Of a DNA stretch of 26,227 nucleotides, positions 8,954-24,806 are shown one piece after another. The stretch lies in IMG/VR virus record IMGVR_UViG_3300020469_000226, positions 1-26,227 of that record; one strand, written 5' to 3'. The notes beneath the pieces are model-generated. The model ran no database searches. It was given only the letters and a program-made list of their open reading frames with translations, and was not told the DNA's origin. Each line of letters opens with the position of its first letter. The stretch's first letter is position 1. This DNA is from a virus. A program made the translations under genes and the position numbers.

Positions 8954-11497
8954 ATGTCTCAACAACAAATACTATTGGGTGCTGGTGGTAAGATAAGTTA
9001 TCAAATTGCTGTAAGTACTACCTACCAAACTGAAGGTGGCACTGTAACAACTACTGTAACAACTACAAATGTTCCTAGTGGAACTACTTTATATTGGTCG
9101 GTAGATGGATCAGTAACATCTGCTGATTTTTCATCAGGTTCAATGACTGGATCTGGAACTATTTCAAATGGTTCATTTAGTTTCTCTCATACTCTTTCTG
9201 CAGATTTAGCTACAGAAGGTAGTGAAAGTATGATAATGAAGTTGTATGAAGATTCTGGTAGAACAATACTTTTAGATACTTCTGCTACTGTGACTGTTGC
9301 TGATAGTAGTGTTACACCAACCATGAATACTAGTGGTTTAGAGCATTGGTGGGAATTTAATGAAAAGGTAGAAGGAGGAGGACAAACTGGTACTTATTTT
9401 GAATATGATGCTAATACTACTGGTCATATTAATTTTCAGGAGCAGGGAATAATTTACTCAGGTCCAAGTGGTGACTATCAAATGGGAACGGGTGACTTTA
9501 CCATTGAATGTTGGGTTTGGAAAAACAATTCTTCTCACAGAGGTATCTGGCAGATATCTACATCTTCTCAAGGTTTGAAAACCAGTAACTTAGATCTTAC
9601 TTTGGCAGTAGGATTTCAAAATTATTGTTGGCAAATCTATGGTGTTAATAATGGCAGTGGAGTTGGATATAGTCAAGGACCTACTTATACTAATTATCCT
9701 CCTAATACTGCTGGTGATTGGCATCATTTAGCATTAGTTCGTAGATCTGGAAGTATTTTAACTTTATATGTTGATGGGGTGAAACATATTGAAGAAACTG
9801 GTTGCAATCAGAATTATACTGGAAACTATATTTGTCTTGGTGGATATTATAATACTAGTTATAGGCATTTTGGTAAAATAAGTAATTTTAGATTAGTAAA
9901 AGGACAAGCAATTTATACTGAGCAATTCACACCACCACAAGGACCATTAGCAGCAGGAAGTGGTGGGGCAAATCATATAAATGCTTACCAAGCCTATGAT
10001 GGAACTGTTGGTACAAATGTTAAACTATTAGGTGCTCGTCATCTTACTAATTACTTAACTTGGGATATATCTCCTCTCTCATGGTCTCTGAGTGGTCAGA
10101 ATGTTTCTTCTCCTGGATCTCAGTACAGTGGATCGAATCATTCAAATGCTAGAGGATGTGTAGCGGATTTAATTGGAACTAATGACATATATGATCAAGG
10201 TAGTTATTCCTCATTACAGGGATCTACTGCTGGTAAAAAATATGTATATGAAGATGGTGTTGGATATTGGAAATTTAACTATCCAGTTAAATATGGAAAG
10301 TCTGTAGGATATGGTGCGGTTCAATATGATCCTTCTAGTAATGATGATTATGTTTATACTGATGGATCTAATAATGATTCATTGTTTAACTTTAATAGCA
10401 ATACAGATTTTACACTTGAAGCATTTGTAAAGGTTGGTAGTGTTGGTACTGGTGCGAAGGGAACGAGAAATATTATTAGCAGATGGCAAACGGGTAACTA
10501 TTGTTTCCAGATGCATTTCAGATGTAATCCAAGTCGGATTGGGTTTACTGGTGGTCCCAGTATTACAGTTGAAAATTCAAATACATGTAATTGGCAAGCT
10601 AATACATGGCATCATGTAGCAATAACAAGAAGAGGTAGTAATAGTAATAACTGCACCTTCTGGGCAGACGGTGAAGAGAAAGGAACCTTTACATATACAC
10701 AAGGTCCTTATAGTAATAATAATCAACCAGTTGTTATTGGTGCTAATTTGGATGGTGTTACTACTTACAGTATGGAAGATGGAATGATAAGTAATGTAAG
10801 AATTATTAGAGGTTATGCTTTATATGGTGGATTTAGTGGTGTTGATAGCTTCACACCACCAACAGAACCATTAACAAAAACCAGTCAGGGTCTTGGTGCT
10901 GTTGGAGAAGAGGATAGTGTAAGACTCATTTGTTGCCAAGACCCAAGGGATGTTACTACTGTTGATTCAACTTTATCTAATGGATGGACCAGTGCTTTAA
11001 CTAGTTCTGGTGATCCTGTAGCTGTTTCTGACAGTCCATTCGGTACTCGTAGTGGTGCGTTTACTTTCTTTATGTCACTTTTCAGTTATACCAATACTAC
11101 AACTTGGTGGATGATGGCAACAAATGATGATGGTAATAATTTTATTGCGACAAAAGATGATAATTTCAGATTAGATAGTGATCAAAATACTCAAGCTAAT
11201 TATCAAGCATCTAGTTATACAGTACCAAATAATCAAGAAGTAACTTTCTATTTTACTATGAGTGCTAGTGGAACATTCAAAGTATATAAGAATGGAGTAT
11301 ACCTTGGGTCTGGTAATTATAGTGGAACTTGGTCAGATGATGGTGTAGTATTTCAATATCTTGATAAGTATACTGGATCATCATTTCAATGGACAAAGCA
11401 AATGTTTTTCTCTGGATTCTATAATCGAGAATTGAGTGCTAGTGAAATTAGTTCTAATCAAGCTTATCATAATTTAAGATTGGGTACTGGACTTTAA
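8954..11497 (+). CDS. Putative carbohydrate-binding virion protein with Calx-beta-like and LamG-like domains (847 aa)
   Basis: Residues 15-115 resemble a Calx-beta fold (SADFSSGSMTGSGTISNG, then LSADLATEGSESMIMKLYED). Two clear LamG/concanavalin-like domains follow, each with the pattern DFT(I/L)E...WHH(L/V)A(L/I)...VDG or ADG...ISN(F/V)R(L/I)(V/I)(K/R)G. The first spans about 150-335 (DFTIECWVW near 181, WHHLALVRR near 256, FRLVKGQAIYT near 312). The second spans about 455-645 (DFTLEAFV near 485, WHHVAITRR near 552). The last 170 residues look like a third, degenerate copy ending in GFYNRELSASEISSNQ. LamG domains bind sugars or proteins, so this fits a surface-binding virion protein. It starts 3 nt after the previous stop. 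No catalytic residues are evident. Confidence 0.75.
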   Translation: MSQQQILLGAGGKISYQIAVSTTYQTEGGTVTTTVTTTNVPSGTTLYWSVDGSVTSADFSSGSMTGSGTISNGSFSFSHTLSADLATEGSESMIMKLYEDSGRTILLDTSATVTVADSSVTPTMNTSGLEHWWEFNEKVEGGGQTGTYFEYDANTTGHINFQEQGIIYSGPSGDYQMGTGDFTIECWVWKNNSSHRGIWQISTSSQGLKTSNLDLTLAVGFQNYCWQIYGVNNGSGVGYSQGPTYTNYPPNTAGDWHHLALVRRSGSILTLYVDGVKHIEETGCNQNYTGNYICLGGYYNTSYRHFGKISNFRLVKGQAIYTEQFTPPQGPLAAGSGGANHINAYQAYDGTVGTNVKLLGARHLTNYLTWDISPLSWSLSGQNVSSPGSQYSGSNHSNARGCVADLIGTNDIYDQGSYSSLQGSTAGKKYVYEDGVGYWKFNYPVKYGKSVGYGAVQYDPSSNDDYVYTDGSNNDSLFNFNSNTDFTLEAFVKVGSVGTGAKGTRNIISRWQTGNYCFQMHFRCNPSRIGFTGGPSITVENSNTCNWQANTWHHVAITRRGSNSNNCTFWADGEEKGTFTYTQGPYSNNNQPVVIGANLDGVTTYSMEDGMISNVRIIRGYALYGGFSGVDSFTPPTEPLTKTSQGLGAVGEEDSVRLICCQDPRDVTTVDSTLSNGWTSALTSSGDPVAVSDSPFGTRSGAFTFFMSLFSYTNTTTWWMMATNDDGNNFIATKDDNFRLDSDQNTQANYQASSYTVPNNQEVTFYFTMSASGTFKVYKNGVYLGSGNYSGTWSDDGVVFQYLDKYTGSSFQWTKQMFFSGFYNRELSASEISSNQAYHNLRLGTGL

Positions 11498-12301: not shown

Positions 12302-15300
12302 ATGGCTGAATTCAGGATTGGTAGACTTAAATTTAATTGGCGAGGTGTGTGGGTTGTCAGCACTGCATATGTTATTGACGACATCGTAAAATTTGGTGCG
12401 AATACCTATGTTTGTACTACAAATCATACTTCAACTGCTAGTGAGACTAATTTCTACGTTGGAGATTTAAGTAATTGGAGTTTACATACTGAGGGTCTTT
12501 CGTTAAAGGGTGCTTGGGAAACAAATACTTTTTATAAACAAAATGATATCTTTAAGTATGGTAATACTCAGTATAGAGTAATAGCTTCGCATACTTCTGG
12601 AAATGCTTTTACTTTTACACCAGGTGGTGTACAAGCTTTAGAAGAATATCTAGAGTCATTTAACTTTGAAAATACTTGGGATAATACTACTGAGTATCAA
12701 GCAGGTGATGTAGTAACATTTGGTGGATATACTTATGTTTCTAAGAGTATTAATACTAATAAAGCACCTGCCACAAATACCTCAGACTGGGATATTTTAA
12801 CCACAGGATTTAATGTTGTTGGTGAATGGAATTCTGGAACAAATTATATTCAAGGTGACGTTGTTAAATTTGGTGGTGCTAGTTTCGTTGCTGTAGTTAA
12901 TAATCTTAATAATTCGCCATCATCAGGTGGATCTTCTGTTTGGAAATTAGTTGTAGAAGGTCTTTCTTGGAAGGGTAATTGGGATTATGCAACTACCTAT
13001 AAGAAAGGGGAGGCTGTAAAGAGATTAAGTAATAGTTATATTGGTATCTCCACAACAGGAAACTTAAATCAGGATCCTGCTACTGATGCTAGTGGTACTT
13101 ATTGGAATGTATTAGCGGAAGGTGCTGCTAATAATGTTATGAGTAACGAAGGTGACTTGGTTTACTATACATCTGGAGCAACAAGACTTCCTGCTGGTAC
13201 TGATGGTCAAGTATTAACTATCAATAATCATTCTGGAGTTCCATCTTGGGATAATAATAGTGTAACTAATCCAGTTTTCTATGTAACAGAAGAAGGAAAT
13301 GATACTTATGATGGTTCAAATATCAGTAGATCATTCGCTACTATTAAAAAGGCATGTGGAATCGCAACTGGTCCTGCTACAATTTATGTGAAGGCAGGTA
13401 CATATGAAGAACAGTTACCTATTATTGTTCCAGAAGGAATTACAATTGTTGGTGATAACTTAAGAACTACAAAAATTAGACCAACTACTGGAGATTCTCA
13501 TTTCCAAGAAATAGAATTAGCTAGTACTCCATCTGAAACATATACTGTGGCTAACGCTACTTACAATAATACTAGTGGAGATATGGTGTTGACTATTGGT
13601 TCACACTCTCTTCATGTTAATGATAGTATTAAGATTGCTGATGAATCAATAACATTTAGTTGTAATTCTTTTGGTGCTACTGGTCCTGCTTCTCAGAAAG
13701 CATATCCTAGACCAATAGTTGAGGGTGTAACAAATGATTATGTTACTGGTAAGAATGTTAAGGTTATTGAAATTACTGCCACTACTATCACAGTAAACGT
13801 TAATAAGAAGAGAGGACAAGCAATTAGTATTACTGAAGCACATACATTTGTGAGTGCTACTGCTGGAGGAATTCAAAAATCTGAGTTCCAGATTTCTTTA
13901 GGTACTTATATTACTAATGGTGCTGGAACAAAAAATGCATTGGTTTTAAATGCTGATTATGCTGAGAAGAAGATTGATATAGCACCATTAACTGGTGGAC
14001 TATGGACAACATCTGATACTTGGGATCAAGGTGCTTCTCCTATATCTATATTATCTACTTTAACAAGACCTAATAACGAGTCTTATATGTTCTTGATGAG
14101 TAATAGGACAATGCTCAAGGATATATTAATGGATGGATTGACTGGATTCCAACCAGCAGGTCAAGTTGCTCAAATTACTGCTTCTATTAGTGGAACTATT
14201 GTTACAGGAACAAATTTCTTCCCAGATTTGGTTGGAACAACTGTAACAGGAACTAGTGTTACTGCTGGAACTAAGGTTAATAATTTTATAAGTTCTTCTC
14301 AAATTGAGGTAGATAAGGTTCAGACCGTTTCTTCTACTCAATTAACATTTACTGCTACACCAGAAGACCCAAATAATGCAACTATAAAGGGTGTATATGT
14401 TTCATTGAACCCTGCTAGTCCAATTACGAAATCACCATATATTTCAAACTGTTCTGCCCAATCTATAGGTGGTGTAGGAGCAATGGTTGATGGTCAGGTT
14501 CACCGTCAATTTGCCGATGATGGTATAAACCCATCAAACAAATCAATTGTGATGGACTCCTTTACTCAAATACATGATGGTGGTATGGGATTCTTTATCA
14601 CTAACGCTGCTGCATCTGAACTTGTTTCTTCATTCACATACTATTGCCACATAAGTTATGCTGCTACTCGTGGTGGTAGAATTAGATCTCTTGCTGGAAA
14701 CAGTTCATGGGGTAACTATGGTATTGTAAGTTCTGGATATAGTAATAATGAGAAAGCATTAGAAGGAACTGTTGAAGGTTTGATAGCTCAATATGATGCT
14801 TCTAATGTAACTGGTGGTGCTGGATTCTCTATTAACGAAAGAATTAAAGGTGCTGATTCTGGTGCTATTGGATATGTTAATACTATCCAAGGAACAACTC
14901 AAGAAAATCTATATTATTCTCTAATTACTGCTGGACCTGTAAGTGCTGGTGGAACTGGATTTAGATCTGGTGAAGAAATTGAAGGATTAACTACAGGAAC
15001 TAAAGCAAATCTTATTTCTAACACCAATGCTAACAGAGGACAGGATGGTAGAACATTGGTTCTTGCTGGATTAAGTACTGCTGTTGTTGAGAATGGTAGT
15101 ATTCAGTTCCTAACTGGATCTGGTAATGGTGGACTTGGTAATGTGAATATTAGTGGTGCTGATCCATTTACGTTCGTGATTAGTGGTGTAAGTAGAGTTG
15201 GTGCTGATGGAAGAGGATCTGTTGTTATTGATAGAAGTGAATGGGCTACAACAGGTGTTGCTCATACTGGTGCGATTACCGAAATTATAAAGTATCCTAA

Positions 15301-16246
15301 CCAGACAACTTCTACTGCTTCATTACTTACTCCTCTATATGCTAATGAAACTACAATTAATGTTTCTACTATTACTGGATTTGACCCTAACGAATTTGTT
15401 CTAATTGATAAGGAGTTATGTAAGATTGCTTCTTTCCCAACATCAAACTCAATTACAGTCACAAGAGCATCTCAGGGAGCAGGTATAGCATCTGATTATC
15501 CTACAGGACAGTCTATAGTTTCTATAGGTGCTAGTTCTCTTGTATCTAATGCTGAAATACAAAAAGATTTTGAATCTGCTGATATATCAATGAGAGTATT
15601 TGATGCTTCCGTTTATGAACTAGATCAATACTATAAGATTGAGGATGAGTTTGTTAAGGTAGTTGGTATAAACACTGATATTCATGGATTAACTACAATA
15701 ACACTTGTTGAAGATAAAGCTGCTAAGTGTTATGATGAGCAGAATATTAATATTAGATATATCTTTAGTCAGGCAAGATTAACTGGACATGACTTCCTAC
15801 AAGTAGGAACTGGTGGAACCGTTACAACTAACTGGCCTGATGTTCCTGAGCAAGATCCTGCTCAATCTCAGGAAATTAATGAGAGTTATCCTGGTCGTGT
15901 TTTCTATGTGTCAACTGACCATGAAGGTAACTTCCGTGTTGGTAGATACTTCCGTGTTAACCAAGCAACTGGATCAGCAACATTGAACGCTAACGCATTT
16001 GATCTTTCTGGTTTGACCAACTTACAATTGGGTTCTATTGGTGCTCAGTTGGGTGCTGCTATCAACGAGTTCTCAACCGATGGAACACTTTCTCAGAACA
16101 GTAATGAGAAGTGTCCTACACAGGCTGCTGTAAAAACTTATGTTGATACGAACATAACCAGTTTGACCAATGATACTAACGTTGGATTAACATCTGTTCA
16201 GACAGATGCTTTAACTCAGGCATTTTGGCTTGGGTTGAGTGCTTAA
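12302..16246 (+). CDS. Giant virion protein: five CBM5/12-like repeats plus pectin-lyase-like region (1314 aa)
   Basis: The largest gene here has AGGAG (12285-12289) before its ATG. Residues 10-275 contain five tandem units of about 50 residues with the pattern W...Y..GD(V/I)VK(F/Y)G...Y......W.....G (for example FNWRGVWVVSTAYVIDDIVK, WNSGTNYIQGDVVKFGGASF). This resembles chitin/cellulose-binding CBM5/12 modules. Residues 325-400 (FYVTEEGNDTYDGSNISRSF, then IYVKAGTYEEQLPIIVPEG) are the typical N-terminal entry into a right-handed beta-helix, as in pectin-lyase-like phage tailspikes. A long beta-rich middle follows. The last 120 residues (VFYVSTDHEGNFRVGRYFRV ... CPTQAAVKTYVD) resemble the conserved tail of large virion proteins in cyanophages. 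Its 3' end uses more C-ending codons than the rest. Possible polysaccharide-binding or degrading spike; no catalytic residues could be assigned. Confidence 0.78.
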   Translation: MAEFRIGRLKFNWRGVWVVSTAYVIDDIVKFGANTYVCTTNHTSTASETNFYVGDLSNWSLHTEGLSLKGAWETNTFYKQNDIFKYGNTQYRVIASHTSGNAFTFTPGGVQALEEYLESFNFENTWDNTTEYQAGDVVTFGGYTYVSKSINTNKAPATNTSDWDILTTGFNVVGEWNSGTNYIQGDVVKFGGASFVAVVNNLNNSPSSGGSSVWKLVVEGLSWKGNWDYATTYKKGEAVKRLSNSYIGISTTGNLNQDPATDASGTYWNVLAEGAANNVMSNEGDLVYYTSGATRLPAGTDGQVLTINNHSGVPSWDNNSVTNPVFYVTEEGNDTYDGSNISRSFATIKKACGIATGPATIYVKAGTYEEQLPIIVPEGITIVGDNLRTTKIRPTTGDSHFQEIELASTPSETYTVANATYNNTSGDMVLTIGSHSLHVNDSIKIADESITFSCNSFGATGPASQKAYPRPIVEGVTNDYVTGKNVKVIEITATTITVNVNKKRGQAISITEAHTFVSATAGGIQKSEFQISLGTYITNGAGTKNALVLNADYAEKKIDIAPLTGGLWTTSDTWDQGASPISILSTLTRPNNESYMFLMSNRTMLKDILMDGLTGFQPAGQVAQITASISGTIVTGTNFFPDLVGTTVTGTSVTAGTKVNNFISSSQIEVDKVQTVSSTQLTFTATPEDPNNATIKGVYVSLNPASPITKSPYISNCSAQSIGGVGAMVDGQVHRQFADDGINPSNKSIVMDSFTQIHDGGMGFFITNAAASELVSSFTYYCHISYAATRGGRIRSLAGNSSWGNYGIVSSGYSNNEKALEGTVEGLIAQYDASNVTGGAGFSINERIKGADSGAIGYVNTIQGTTQENLYYSLITAGPVSAGGTGFRSGEEIEGLTTGTKANLISNTNANRGQDGRTLVLAGLSTAVVENGSIQFLTGSGNGGLGNVNISGADPFTFVISGVSRVGADGRGSVVIDRSEWATTGVAHTGAITEIIKYPNQTTSTASLLTPLYANETTINVSTITGFDPNEFVLIDKELCKIASFPTSNSITVTRASQGAGIASDYPTGQSIVSIGASSLVSNAEIQKDFESADISMRVFDASVYELDQYYKIEDEFVKVVGINTDIHGLTTITLVEDKAAKCYDEQNINIRYIFSQARLTGHDFLQVGTGGTVTTNWPDVPEQDPAQSQEINESYPGRVFYVSTDHEGNFRVGRYFRVNQATGSATLNANAFDLSGLTNLQLGSIGAQLGAAINEFSTDGTLSQNSNEKCPTQAAVKTYVDTNITSLTNDTNVGLTSVQTDALTQAFWLGLSA

Positions 16247-16256
16247 TAATTAGGAC

Positions 16257-16266
16257 CTATAAATAC
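16257..16266 (+). promoter_or_regulatory. T4-like late promoter (CTATAAATAC)
   Basis: TATAAATA (16258-16265) is a full match to the late consensus in the 46-nt gap after the giant virion gene and 27 nt before the next start. It would drive the 109-aa protein and the cysteine-rich adhesin. Confidence 0.72.
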
Positions 16267-16292: not shown

Positions 16293-16622
16293 ATGGCATC
16301 TGGACTATTAGGACAAGCTGCATTGGTTGGGACTACAACCACCACAGTATATACAGTTCCTGCATCTAAATTGGGTGTGTTAAATATTAACATTGTTAAT
16401 CGTGACACAACTAATGCTGCTACTGTAAGAGTAGCGTTAACAACTGCTGCTTCAGTATCAGAGCCTTTGGATGCGGAATATATTGAATATGGAGCTGAGA
16501 TTCCTGCTAAAGGAGTTTTAGAAAGAACTGGCATAGCACTTGACGCAACAAAGAATGTTGTTGTGTATGACGCACAAGGCACTTGTAGCGTGAGTGTATA
16601 TGGTTTAGAACAATCAGCATAA
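16293..16622 (+). CDS. Small virion structural protein (109 aa)
   Basis: A compact beta protein (VGTTTTTVYTVPASKLGVLNI, then NRDTTNAATVRVAL, ending in GTCSVSVYGLEQS). Sequences of this kind (ttTTvYTVPa...nvnivNr....a.vrvAi) occur in marine T4-like phages as small structural proteins beside fibre genes, though I cannot name the family. It is preceded by AGAGG (16274-16278) and a perfect late promoter. The next gene's ribosome site AAGGAG overlaps its stop codon, pointing to joint translation with the adhesin. It may be an accessory or capping subunit for that adhesin. No membrane or catalytic features. Confidence 0.7.
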   Translation: MASGLLGQAALVGTTTTTVYTVPASKLGVLNINIVNRDTTNAATVRVALTTAASVSEPLDAEYIEYGAEIPAKGVLERTGIALDATKNVVVYDAQGTCSVSVYGLEQSA

Positions 16623-16638
16623 GGAGAATTATTAGAAA

Positions 16639-18369
16639 ATGGCAAGATTTTTAGGAACTGCTGCTGGTAGATCTGCTGGAGGTGGAGGCGGTGGAGGTTT
16701 ATTTACCAAAGCAAAGGTATTTACAACAGCAGGATCGAGTACATTTGATGTACCAGGTAATGCTTCAACGGTAAAGGTTTTTGTAGTTGGTGCTGGTTCT
16801 TGTTATAGACCAGGTTTATATTGTTTTAATAGTACCAACTGTTGTTCTGGTGTTTCATATCCTAGAAGATATTATAACGCATGTTTTTGTGGTCATTTGA
16901 CTGGTGCTGGTGGAGGATATGCTGAAAAGACATGGACATCAAAGGATGATCAGATTGGTGGTAAACAATTAACTGTTATTGTTGGATCTCCAGGTGGTAC
17001 TTCATCAAGTAGTGTAGATGGAGCAGGATTAAATGCTGTAACTGCTACTAATGCTACAGAGTCTGCTTATACTTGGGCATGTACTAGTAATAGCACAGCA
17101 AGAGATAATACAAATGACAACCCAATTTTTGGTGGTTTCAAGTTACCTACTTGTGGATATCAAAATAATTTTAATGGATATAATAATGATGGTGGAAGTG
17201 CTAGTGGTGGAGATATAAACCGTACTGGTGGTGAAGGTGAATTAATACCTGAATTCCTATATGATGCTAAATTAGATGCTTACAGTACTGATACTGGCGG
17301 TGGTTCAAGTAGTGGAACTACAGGTACTAACTCTTGTTGGGTAAGTCCTAGTATTTGTTGTATGTGCTGGAGAGCTTATCATCAGGTCTTTGGAAGTCAT
17401 TGTTATTGGCAAGCATGGTGTTGTGATAACTGTACTTGTTATTATCTTTGTGCTAATATAAGCAGTATGTGCTACTGTGTACCAGGTGGTGGTAGTAATC
17501 CTGCTAGAGCAGAAGTTCAGATTCAATATCGTGGAAAGGCTGCTGGTGGTGTAGGAAGTTGTGGTGGTTGGTGTAATGCCTCCAATAGCTTTGAGGAAAC
17601 ATTTAATGATGGAGGTAGAAAATTCCCAGATAGTTGTGGTCCTGTTGGTATTCCACCTATTGCTCCTGGCAATAATACAATGCCAGATGCTTCTTTAGAA
17701 GATGAAACATGGCATACTGTTCCAATAGGTATGGGTGCTCAATCTGGATATAGTGCTGGTAATGGTGCTGCTGGTAGAACAGAAGGTATTATTGCCGATG
17801 TTACTCCACGTAATGATCAAAAAGGTGATGCTAGTGGTGCTGGTGGTAGCGGTTCGGAAATGCAAGTTACCTGTGGATGGAACTCTAGTTATGGATATGA
17901 TTATTCCTTTGGTGGATCTGCTGTTCACTGCGGATGCTTTATGTATTATCCTGGAGTTCATAGTAGTTGCCAATCTAAAACTGCTAGCTGTGGAGCTGGT
18001 TCAAACCCTCCATATTGTTACTCTTGTACTGGATTTGGTTGGACTTATGTGTTTGGATCCTGCCAATCTACTCAGGCAATGTGTTGGAAAATGCCCTATG
18101 GTTCTACATCAGTAGATTCTGGTGGAGGTGCTGACTGCGTTTATAAGACATGCTATAATGTAGGTTTCTTACATGATCCAGAGTCAAACGCTGCTGATAC
18201 TTATACTATTCCATTATCTACCTTATTAAATGCTGATACTGATGGAAATCAGGAAGACTTCATTTATGGTAGAGGTGCTACTCTTGATAAAGCTGCTGGA
18301 TATGGTGGTGGCGGAAATAGAGAGTATAAAGCTGGTGGTAGTGGTGCGGTTGTAATTGTCTACGGTTAA
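16639..18369 (+). CDS. Glycine-rich, cysteine-rich tail adhesin-like protein (576 aa)
   Basis: The frame of the protein is that of glycine-rich phage adhesins. A start FTKAKVFTTAGSSTFDVPG, then VKVFVVGAG (residues 22-52), matches the 'vF...GtftvP.....V.V.vvGaGG' opening. The end YGGGGNREYKAGGSGAVVIV is the usual closing strand. Between them are 34 cysteines by my count, some paired (CC) or in CxC and CxxC spacing (for example SICCMCWRAYHQVFGSHCYW near 238-258), mixed with aromatic residues. This is highly unusual for a phage fibre and suggests either disulfides formed outside the cell or metal binding. Residues 12-20 include a glycine run. AAGGAG lies 14 nt before the ATG. Best read as a receptor-binding tip; the cysteine role is unknown. 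Confidence 0.72.
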   Translation: MARFLGTAAGRSAGGGGGGGLFTKAKVFTTAGSSTFDVPGNASTVKVFVVGAGSCYRPGLYCFNSTNCCSGVSYPRRYYNACFCGHLTGAGGGYAEKTWTSKDDQIGGKQLTVIVGSPGGTSSSSVDGAGLNAVTATNATESAYTWACTSNSTARDNTNDNPIFGGFKLPTCGYQNNFNGYNNDGGSASGGDINRTGGEGELIPEFLYDAKLDAYSTDTGGGSSSGTTGTNSCWVSPSICCMCWRAYHQVFGSHCYWQAWCCDNCTCYYLCANISSMCYCVPGGGSNPARAEVQIQYRGKAAGGVGSCGGWCNASNSFEETFNDGGRKFPDSCGPVGIPPIAPGNNTMPDASLEDETWHTVPIGMGAQSGYSAGNGAAGRTEGIIADVTPRNDQKGDASGAGGSGSEMQVTCGWNSSYGYDYSFGGSAVHCGCFMYYPGVHSSCQSKTASCGAGSNPPYCYSCTGFGWTYVFGSCQSTQAMCWKMPYGSTSVDSGGGADCVYKTCYNVGFLHDPESNAADTYTIPLSTLLNADTDGNQEDFIYGRGATLDKAAGYGGGGNREYKAGGSGAVVIVYG

Positions 18370-24569: not shown

Positions 24570-24806
24570 ATGAACTTTGCTATTTTTTCAAAAGATGGAT
24601 GTCCTTATTGTGAGAAAGTAAAGGATGTTTTGGAGTTGACAAAAGTAAGTCATGTAGTGTATAATTTAGACGAACACTTTGATCAAAAATCATTCTATGG
24701 TGAATTCGGAGAAGGATCCACCTTTCCACAAGTTGTGGTTGATGGTAAGAAGTTGGGGGGATGTGTTGACACAATCCAATACCTCAAAGAAAACAAAATC
24801 GTCTAA
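24570..24806 (+). CDS. Glutaredoxin (78 aa)
   Basis: A short thiol-disulfide oxidoreductase of the classic CPYC type. The active site C11-P-Y-C14 sits after the first strand (MNFAIFSKDG). TFPQV (near residue 52) supplies the cis-proline, and GGCVDTIQYL the usual GG.D glutathione-binding end. Length is normal for phage glutaredoxins. T4-like phages often carry one to serve ribonucleotide reductase or general thiol balance; no reductase gene is in this window, so its partner is unknown. AAGG (24556-24559) lies upstream of the ATG. Its 3' end is overlapped in another frame by the open stretch that leads into the small membrane protein gene. There is no sign of degradation. Confidence 0.93.
   Translation: MNFAIFSKDGCPYCEKVKDVLELTKVSHVVYNLDEHFDQKSFYGEFGEGSTFPQVVVDGKKLGGCVDTIQYLKENKIV

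Follow-up and report, generated by a model that had tools for sequence, protein, structure and literature searches.

Conserved cysteine-rich proteins at one gene position in several cyanophages suggest cross-linked receptor-binding loops

Little is known about the proteins with which marine T4-like cyanophages bind their receptors. The fibre tip of cyanophage Pam3, gp24 (PDB 7ypx and 7yfw), is built by a TNF-like domain that bears glycine-rich loops, and receptor binding has been proposed for the distal ends of these loops (PMC9608196). The loops contain 39% Gly with GGGGxGG motifs, the protein is encoded together with its chaperone gp25, and the words cysteine and disulfide are absent from the text of the paper (PMC9608196). 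Proteins of the PF21722 Gly_rich_2 family, such as that of Pelagibacter phage Mosig, are related to the proteins described here; they have the same frame and occupy the same genomic slot, but they are polyglycine-rich and contain 0-2% Cys.

The slot lies behind a related tail fibre in the cyanophages P-SSM2, S-CAM1, S-CAM3, S-SSM7 and Sf-FS3, which encode two or three proteins each with 8-12% Cys in this position. P-SSM2 has two of them (PSSM2_304 and PSSM2_306, with 36 Cys each in ~355 aa), S-CAM1 has three (SXBG_00224-00226, with 25-36 Cys in ~300 aa), S-SSM7 has three (SSSM7_114-116, with 28-30 Cys in ~262 aa), and S-CAM3 and Sf-FS3 have three each. The single-cell contig AG-345-P14 encodes a 282-aa protein with 26 Cys in the same slot, and the most Cys-laden slot proteins contain 44-48 Cys in 383-415 aa (L065, L066 and L072; 10.6-12.1%). 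All those of the named cyanophages are annotated as 'hypothetical protein', with PHROGs of unknown function (phrog_35878 and phrog_4205), and a literature search, which covered open-access sources, found no work on such Cys-rich proteins. Many slot proteins, Cys-rich and Cys-poor alike, match PF21722; among the Cys-rich ones, scores above the cut-off of 24.3 bits are found in S-CAM1 (40.4 bits), L175 (44.1 bits) and L165 (32.8 bits), while the slot proteins of P-SSM2 and the first one of S-CAM3 score below it. The slot is a concrete candidate position for receptor-binding genes in at least five cyanophage isolates, and its genes, so far annotated merely as hypothetical, can now be described by a predicted fold, by a promoter of late type and by a chemistry that can be measured.

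The window analysed here, which is the whole stretch of 26,227 nucleotides, comes from a marine relative of Prochlorococcus phage P-SSM2, and the tail fibres of the two are 57% identical over 99%. The tail fibre is followed by a late-type element, a 109-aa protein, the Cys-rich ORF, a 250-aa protein and then by genes that match the P-SSM2 sugar-modification cassette, such as a carbamoyltransferase (Table 1). The N-terminal part of the tail fibre contains four CBM_5_12 carbohydrate-binding modules (E=2.7e-16, 4 stretches). Exact copies of TATAAATA occur only three times in the window (at 1790, 16258 and 24813), all on the + strand and each in the gap just 5' of an ORF, a placement that would be expected for T4-type late promoters. 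The late-type element is found in the same place in L002-L004, P-SSM2, S-CAM1 and S-CAM3, and lies at most 900 bases from the anchor fibre in 17 of 17 further census loci inspected. The counterparts of the 109-aa protein in P-SSM2 and S-CAM1 match phrog_11338 too. The 250-aa protein matches no Pfam or PHROG model and shows no similarity to its P-SSM2 and S-CAM1 counterparts by BLASTP, and it is a probable fibre chaperone by its position behind the Cys-rich gene. Genes shortly 3' of the Cys-rich sets in S-SSM7 and Sf-FS3 match tail-fibre assembly PHROGs, and that of S-SSM7 also matches PF16778 Phage_tail_APC (E 1.1e-9), so a slot chaperone, such as Pam3 has in gp25, is indicated by match in these two phages, while the window has a candidate by position.

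Table 1. Features of the slot and of its surroundings in the window
Feature	Position	Strand	Basis
Tail fibre, 1314 aa, syntenic anchor of the slot	12302..16246	+	phrog_9851 tail fiber protein, E=0, 1431 bits
T4-type late promoter-like element CTATAAATA, ~28 bases 5' of the next ORF	16257..16265	+	Consensus match
Small fibre-associated protein, 109 aa, first slot gene, conserved	16293..16622	+	phrog_11338 tail fiber protein, E=7e-6
Cys-rich adhesin-like protein, 576 aa, 34 Cys	16639..18369	+	Intact ORF, five homologues, no Pfam or PHROG match
Putative docking stretch (N-terminal, Gly-rich) with the first strands of the frame, residues 1-54, no Cys	16639..16800	+	hhalign with Cys-poor Gly-rich slot proteins
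Cys block 1, residues 55-84, 6 Cys, insert in first frame loop (putative)	16801..16890	+	Cys positions; Cys55 and Cys84 both missing in L005
Frame strands (putative), residues 86-147, no Cys	16894..17079	+	hhalign to S-SSM7-type Cys-rich cluster; weak A5 alignment
Cys block 2, residues 148-333, 17 Cys, densest at 241-288	17080..17637	+	11 of 17 Cys invariant in six homologues
Cys block 3, residues 412-505, 11 Cys	17872..18153	+	8 of 11 Cys invariant in six homologues
C-terminal frame (putative), residues 527-576, ending GGSGAVVIVYG, no Cys	18217..18366	+	Ending resembles Gly_rich_2 slot proteins
Candidate fibre chaperone, 250 aa, no Cys, kept beside the Cys-rich gene in L002-L005	18378..19130	+	Position
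Glutaredoxin	24570..24806	+	Pfam match, PF00462, E 1.7e-14

The Cys-rich ORF and the slot proteins of the cyanophages share the genomic slot, a Gly-rich frame with dense Cys, the late-type promoter and fibre-related neighbours. They differ in that the ORF is single and longer, whereas the cyanophage proteins have 260-356 aa and occur as two or three per genome with 8-12% Cys, and the ORF has neither BLAST-level similarity to them nor a PHROG match. Cys makes up 5.9% of its residues (34/576), against 1.03% in the remaining 23 ORFs of the window taken together (7,938 residues), and the second-highest content belongs to the 78-aa glutaredoxin, which has 3 Cys. The count of 34 Cys given in the preliminary description is exact, and its remark that Cys are usually scarce in phage fibres is true of the remaining fibre-like ORFs in the window (0-1.3%). 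The Gly-rich ends that it reported are indeed free of Cys; the Cys-rich middle that they were said to enclose is made of three blocks, with a Cys-free frame between the first two, and none of the 34 Cys falls in the Gly-rich frames. The densest zone, with 10 Cys, lies inside block 2. All the CC, CxC and CxxC spacings noted earlier are present (3, 5 and 2, respectively). Given 34 Cys, only CxC (5 against 1.8 expected, p 0.03) and Cys-Cys steps of at most 3 residues (10 against 5.5 expected, p 0.024) are enriched among the spacings tested, and only mildly, so the outstanding feature of the protein is the density of Cys and not its spacing. The C-terminal ending is comparable to those of Gly_rich_2 slot proteins, such as GGSGIVVVQF in Mosig and GGSGLVKITYV in S-SSM7. 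The ORF (residues 1-20) shares with the otherwise different slot proteins PSSM2_303 and that of AG-345-P14 (L011:22367-22642 and L015:5117-5965) an N-terminal MARF or MGRF, behind which comes either a Gly-rich stretch or a different domain, and this suggests a common docking end on which heads are swapped.

Five full-length homologues of the ORF are found in IMG/VR, with best-segment identities of 97, 85, 78, 63 and 60%, 29-34 Cys each and a conserved surrounding gene order. They lie on independent contigs and retain the frame and the Cys, with a dN/dS of ~0.37-0.42 at moderate divergence, and therefore the ORF is not a sequencing or frame artefact. Across the six sequences 23 of the 34 Cys are invariant (68%), compared with 262 of the 542 other residues (48%, p 0.034). 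One homologue (L005) lacks both Cys55 and Cys84, which flank block 1, and another (L009) lacks both Cys278 and Cys280; these paired absences, which are two cases only, may be a hint of pairing. The ORF and its close homologues match no Pfam model, including PF21722 (E 0.1), and no PHROG. Searches by tblastn with the ORF and with the following gene against 50,697 phage records gave no match, and neither did sequence searches of the PDB with the family of the ORF or with the Cys-rich relatives.

An AF2 model of the ORF product from the six-sequence alignment had a pLDDT of 28.6 and was set aside. The model of a Cys-rich slot relative, which was made from a 67-sequence alignment, has a pLDDT of 81.8 and a pTM of 0.82, and the ORF product is likened to described proteins through this relative. 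Its best solved match is the Pam3 fibre (Foldseek E 2.4e-7; VIA Z 17.9, 3.1 A over 195 residues), with the same TNF-like and glycine-rich distal domain, followed by the Bxb1 tail tip (Z 13.9) and by the glycine-rich domains of ALK and LTK (Z ~8-8.8). ALK and LTK are eukaryotic receptors whose extracellular TNF-like/glycine-rich domain is of the same overall fold class, and the likeness is at a level where arrangement alone may be common. The S16 gp38 structure (6F45) is absent among the matches listed for the model, which is no evidence against a gp38-type adhesin. The profile of the ORF aligns over residues 34-253 with that of the S-SSM7-type Cys-rich cluster (hhalign E 1.4e-4, prob 53, score 39) and over residues 25-52 with that of the Cys-poor Gly-rich slot proteins (E 0.002, score 33); in these two comparisons the highest scores of the reversed and column-shuffled controls are 18.6 and 22.4. 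Residues 88-137 also align to A5 as a weak match, and the values in the other hhalign comparisons with slot clusters are low and not significant. This moderate profile similarity suggests that the ORF product may share the fold of its relatives.

The proposal that the protein is adhesin-like and forms a receptor tip is supported by the tail-fibre synteny, the late-type promoter, the fibre-assembly gene behind related sets and the Cys-rich relative, whose fold is the one seen in the Pam3 receptor tip. From the slot, the promoter and the fold of the relatives, an adhesin role is likely. A late-expressed non-structural or secreted factor, encoded by chance beside the fibre gene, is a very unlikely alternative, against which stand the position between a fibre gene and a fibre-assembly gene, the late-type promoter and a relative whose fold equals that of a fibre tip. 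In our view the ORF represents a new family of fibre-tip adhesin, and the best explanation of the data is that its loops are held by Cys chemistry rather than by a polyglycine lattice (probability about 0.5). We infer a virion location, a tip position, a receptor role and a disulfide state for its product, and a chaperone role for the next gene. The product would be a late-expressed adhesin carried by the virion at the distal tip of the tail fibre, where it would touch the surface of the cyanobacterial host. The Cys-free frame, whose parts lie at the two ends and behind block 1, would fold as a TNF-like/glycine-rich beta-sandwich of the Pam3 gp24/Gly_rich_2 type, and the Cys- and aromatic-rich segments would be loops that leave this frame and form a receptor-contacting crown. 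In ordinary members the loops are held by a polyglycine hydrogen-bond lattice, while here much of the polyglycine would be swapped for Cys that cross-link neighbouring loops. The cross-links would most likely be disulfides, closing during or after lysis, and would make long and divergent loops rigid and protease-stable outside the cell.

The distribution of the Cys-rich class was followed in a census of 80 IMG/VR loci, which were taken with a conserved fibre segment as anchor, and of their proteins that are encoded up to 7 kb downstream of the anchor, contain at least 13% Gly and are 180 aa or longer. The Cys content of the 109 Gly-rich proteins is bimodal: 84 have at least 6%, 24 have less than 3% and one lies between. 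By locus, 35 are Cys-rich, 20 Cys-poor, one intermediate and none mixed, and on the anchor tree, in which many forks are unresolved, the Cys-rich label changes 6 times, compared with 29.5 times when labels are shuffled. Among the 50,697 phage records, Cys-rich queries match only Synechococcus and Prochlorococcus phages and AG-345 single-cell contigs, and every named isolate found with the class infects one of these two genera. Cys-poor Gly_rich_2 proteins (0-0.8% Cys) are found in Mosig and HTVC008M (both SAR11) and in Melnitz (Methylophilales); a Mosig-based list of heterotroph phages was not used wholesale, as most matches are to the N-terminal region of the Mosig protein and several proteins are not Gly-rich. 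S-PM2, P-SSM4, S-SM2 and P-HM1 match neither the Cys-rich nor the Cys-poor profile. The psbA gene, taken as host marker, is present on 3 of 35 Cys-rich and 0 of 33 other anchor contigs, a comparison that is uninformative because the contigs are fragments.

This host range agrees with a mechanism in which reduced or reactive Cys would undergo exchange with disulfides in a receptor on the cyanobacterial surface and attach the phage covalently, since the heterotroph phages are Cys-poor. One exchange needs far fewer Cys, however, and cyanophage Syn9 (L194/L203, record 30601-32219; 0.8-1.8% Cys) and a second locus of P-SSM2 (L198, record 109786-110481; 0.4% Cys) use Cys-poor Gly_rich_2 proteins, so thiol exchange appears unlikely. 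The same two loci rule out that a cyanobacterial host means a Cys-rich protein. P-SSM2 has both kinds in one genome, and Cys richness is therefore tied to the fibre slot in some lineages and not simply to the host or genome.

Cys is the most conserved residue in 83 sister pairs of the Cys-rich class (94.5% kept, compared with 92.2% for Gly and 88.0% for Trp). In the most Gly-rich 220 residues, Gly is 18.6% in Cys-rich and 33.6% in Cys-poor slot proteins, and the median number of GGG per protein is 3 and 14, respectively. The sum of Gly and Cys does not differ significantly (29.5% vs 33.9%, p 0.24), and aromatics are about double in the Cys-rich proteins (11.8% vs 6.1%). The anticorrelation between Cys and polyglycine fits loops in which Cys has replaced polyglycine as the element that holds them together. 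No convincing disulfide pair emerged from phi tests or from tests for co-change along branches; Cys co-changes are ~2x the null in one cluster, equally in both directions, and the apparent excess in the largest cluster is confounded by paralogy. Cys are most often lost singly, and the Cys count is odd in 113 of 246 Cys-rich proteins. The preliminary description had named free variation of Cys and lack of a pairing pattern together as the outcome that would speak against stapling or metal binding. The Cys do not vary freely, as their retention in sister pairs shows, but the expected pairing pattern was not found. Cys as a mere filler, which arises by drift or composition bias, forms no cross-link and serves no function, would agree with this lack of pairing; it is extremely improbable in view of the conservation of Cys, both in the wider class and above that of the average residue in the family of the ORF, the almost empty gap between Cys-rich and Cys-poor classes, and the low Cys content of the other fibre-like ORFs of the window.

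That the Cys of the ORF are stapled or metal-binding, as first proposed, is plausible. Disulfides specifically have about even odds, and metal binding is a possibility of lower standing. In T4-type fibres iron is bound by clusters of His. The same adhesin could use its Cys to bind Zn, Fe or Cu ions that hold the loops or join the receptor contact, and such sites would explain the mild enrichment of CxC, would accept odd Cys counts and single losses more easily than strict disulfides, and, if made with zinc or iron, could be loaded in the reducing cytoplasm ahead of lysis. Runs of CCC and isolated Cys would be unlike standard CxxC..CxxC sites, though, ~25-36 Cys per 260-580 residues would imply many sites per chain, and His is scarce in the ORF (7/576), which leaves this alternative doubtful. 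For the adhesin with cross-linked loops, we tentatively propose that a subset of cyanophages evolved a distinct receptor-binding tip, in which the polyglycine crown of the ALK/TNF-like glycine-rich fold gave way to dense Cys cross-links. This tip would first fold in the reducing cytoplasm, and oxidation at lysis would then lock it. Such a redox-matured adhesin would exist in at least two families that diverged beyond BLAST-level similarity and occupy the same slot. If the Cys are cross-links, they show how a virus built in a reducing cytoplasm carries an extracellular stapled binding head, and suggest that the redox state at lysis matters for infectivity.

The link between the Cys-rich protein and the glutaredoxin of the window, which had been raised as speculative, is not upheld. 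The best glutaredoxin matches in S-CAM1 and S-CAM3 lie ~75 kb from the slot, a position relative to the slot is not conserved in other Cys-rich phages, and the gene of the window is probably outside the Cys-rich slot system. Glutaredoxin-like genes number 2-3 each in S-CAM1, S-CAM3, S-SSM7 and Sf-FS3, against one weak match each in the Cys-poor Mosig and Melnitz, which are too few phages to interpret. Upstream of the tail fibre, the window also encodes an 847-aa protein (8954-11497) with concanavalin-like Laminin_G_3 stretches (E 8.5e-28), which is probably another fibre or spike.
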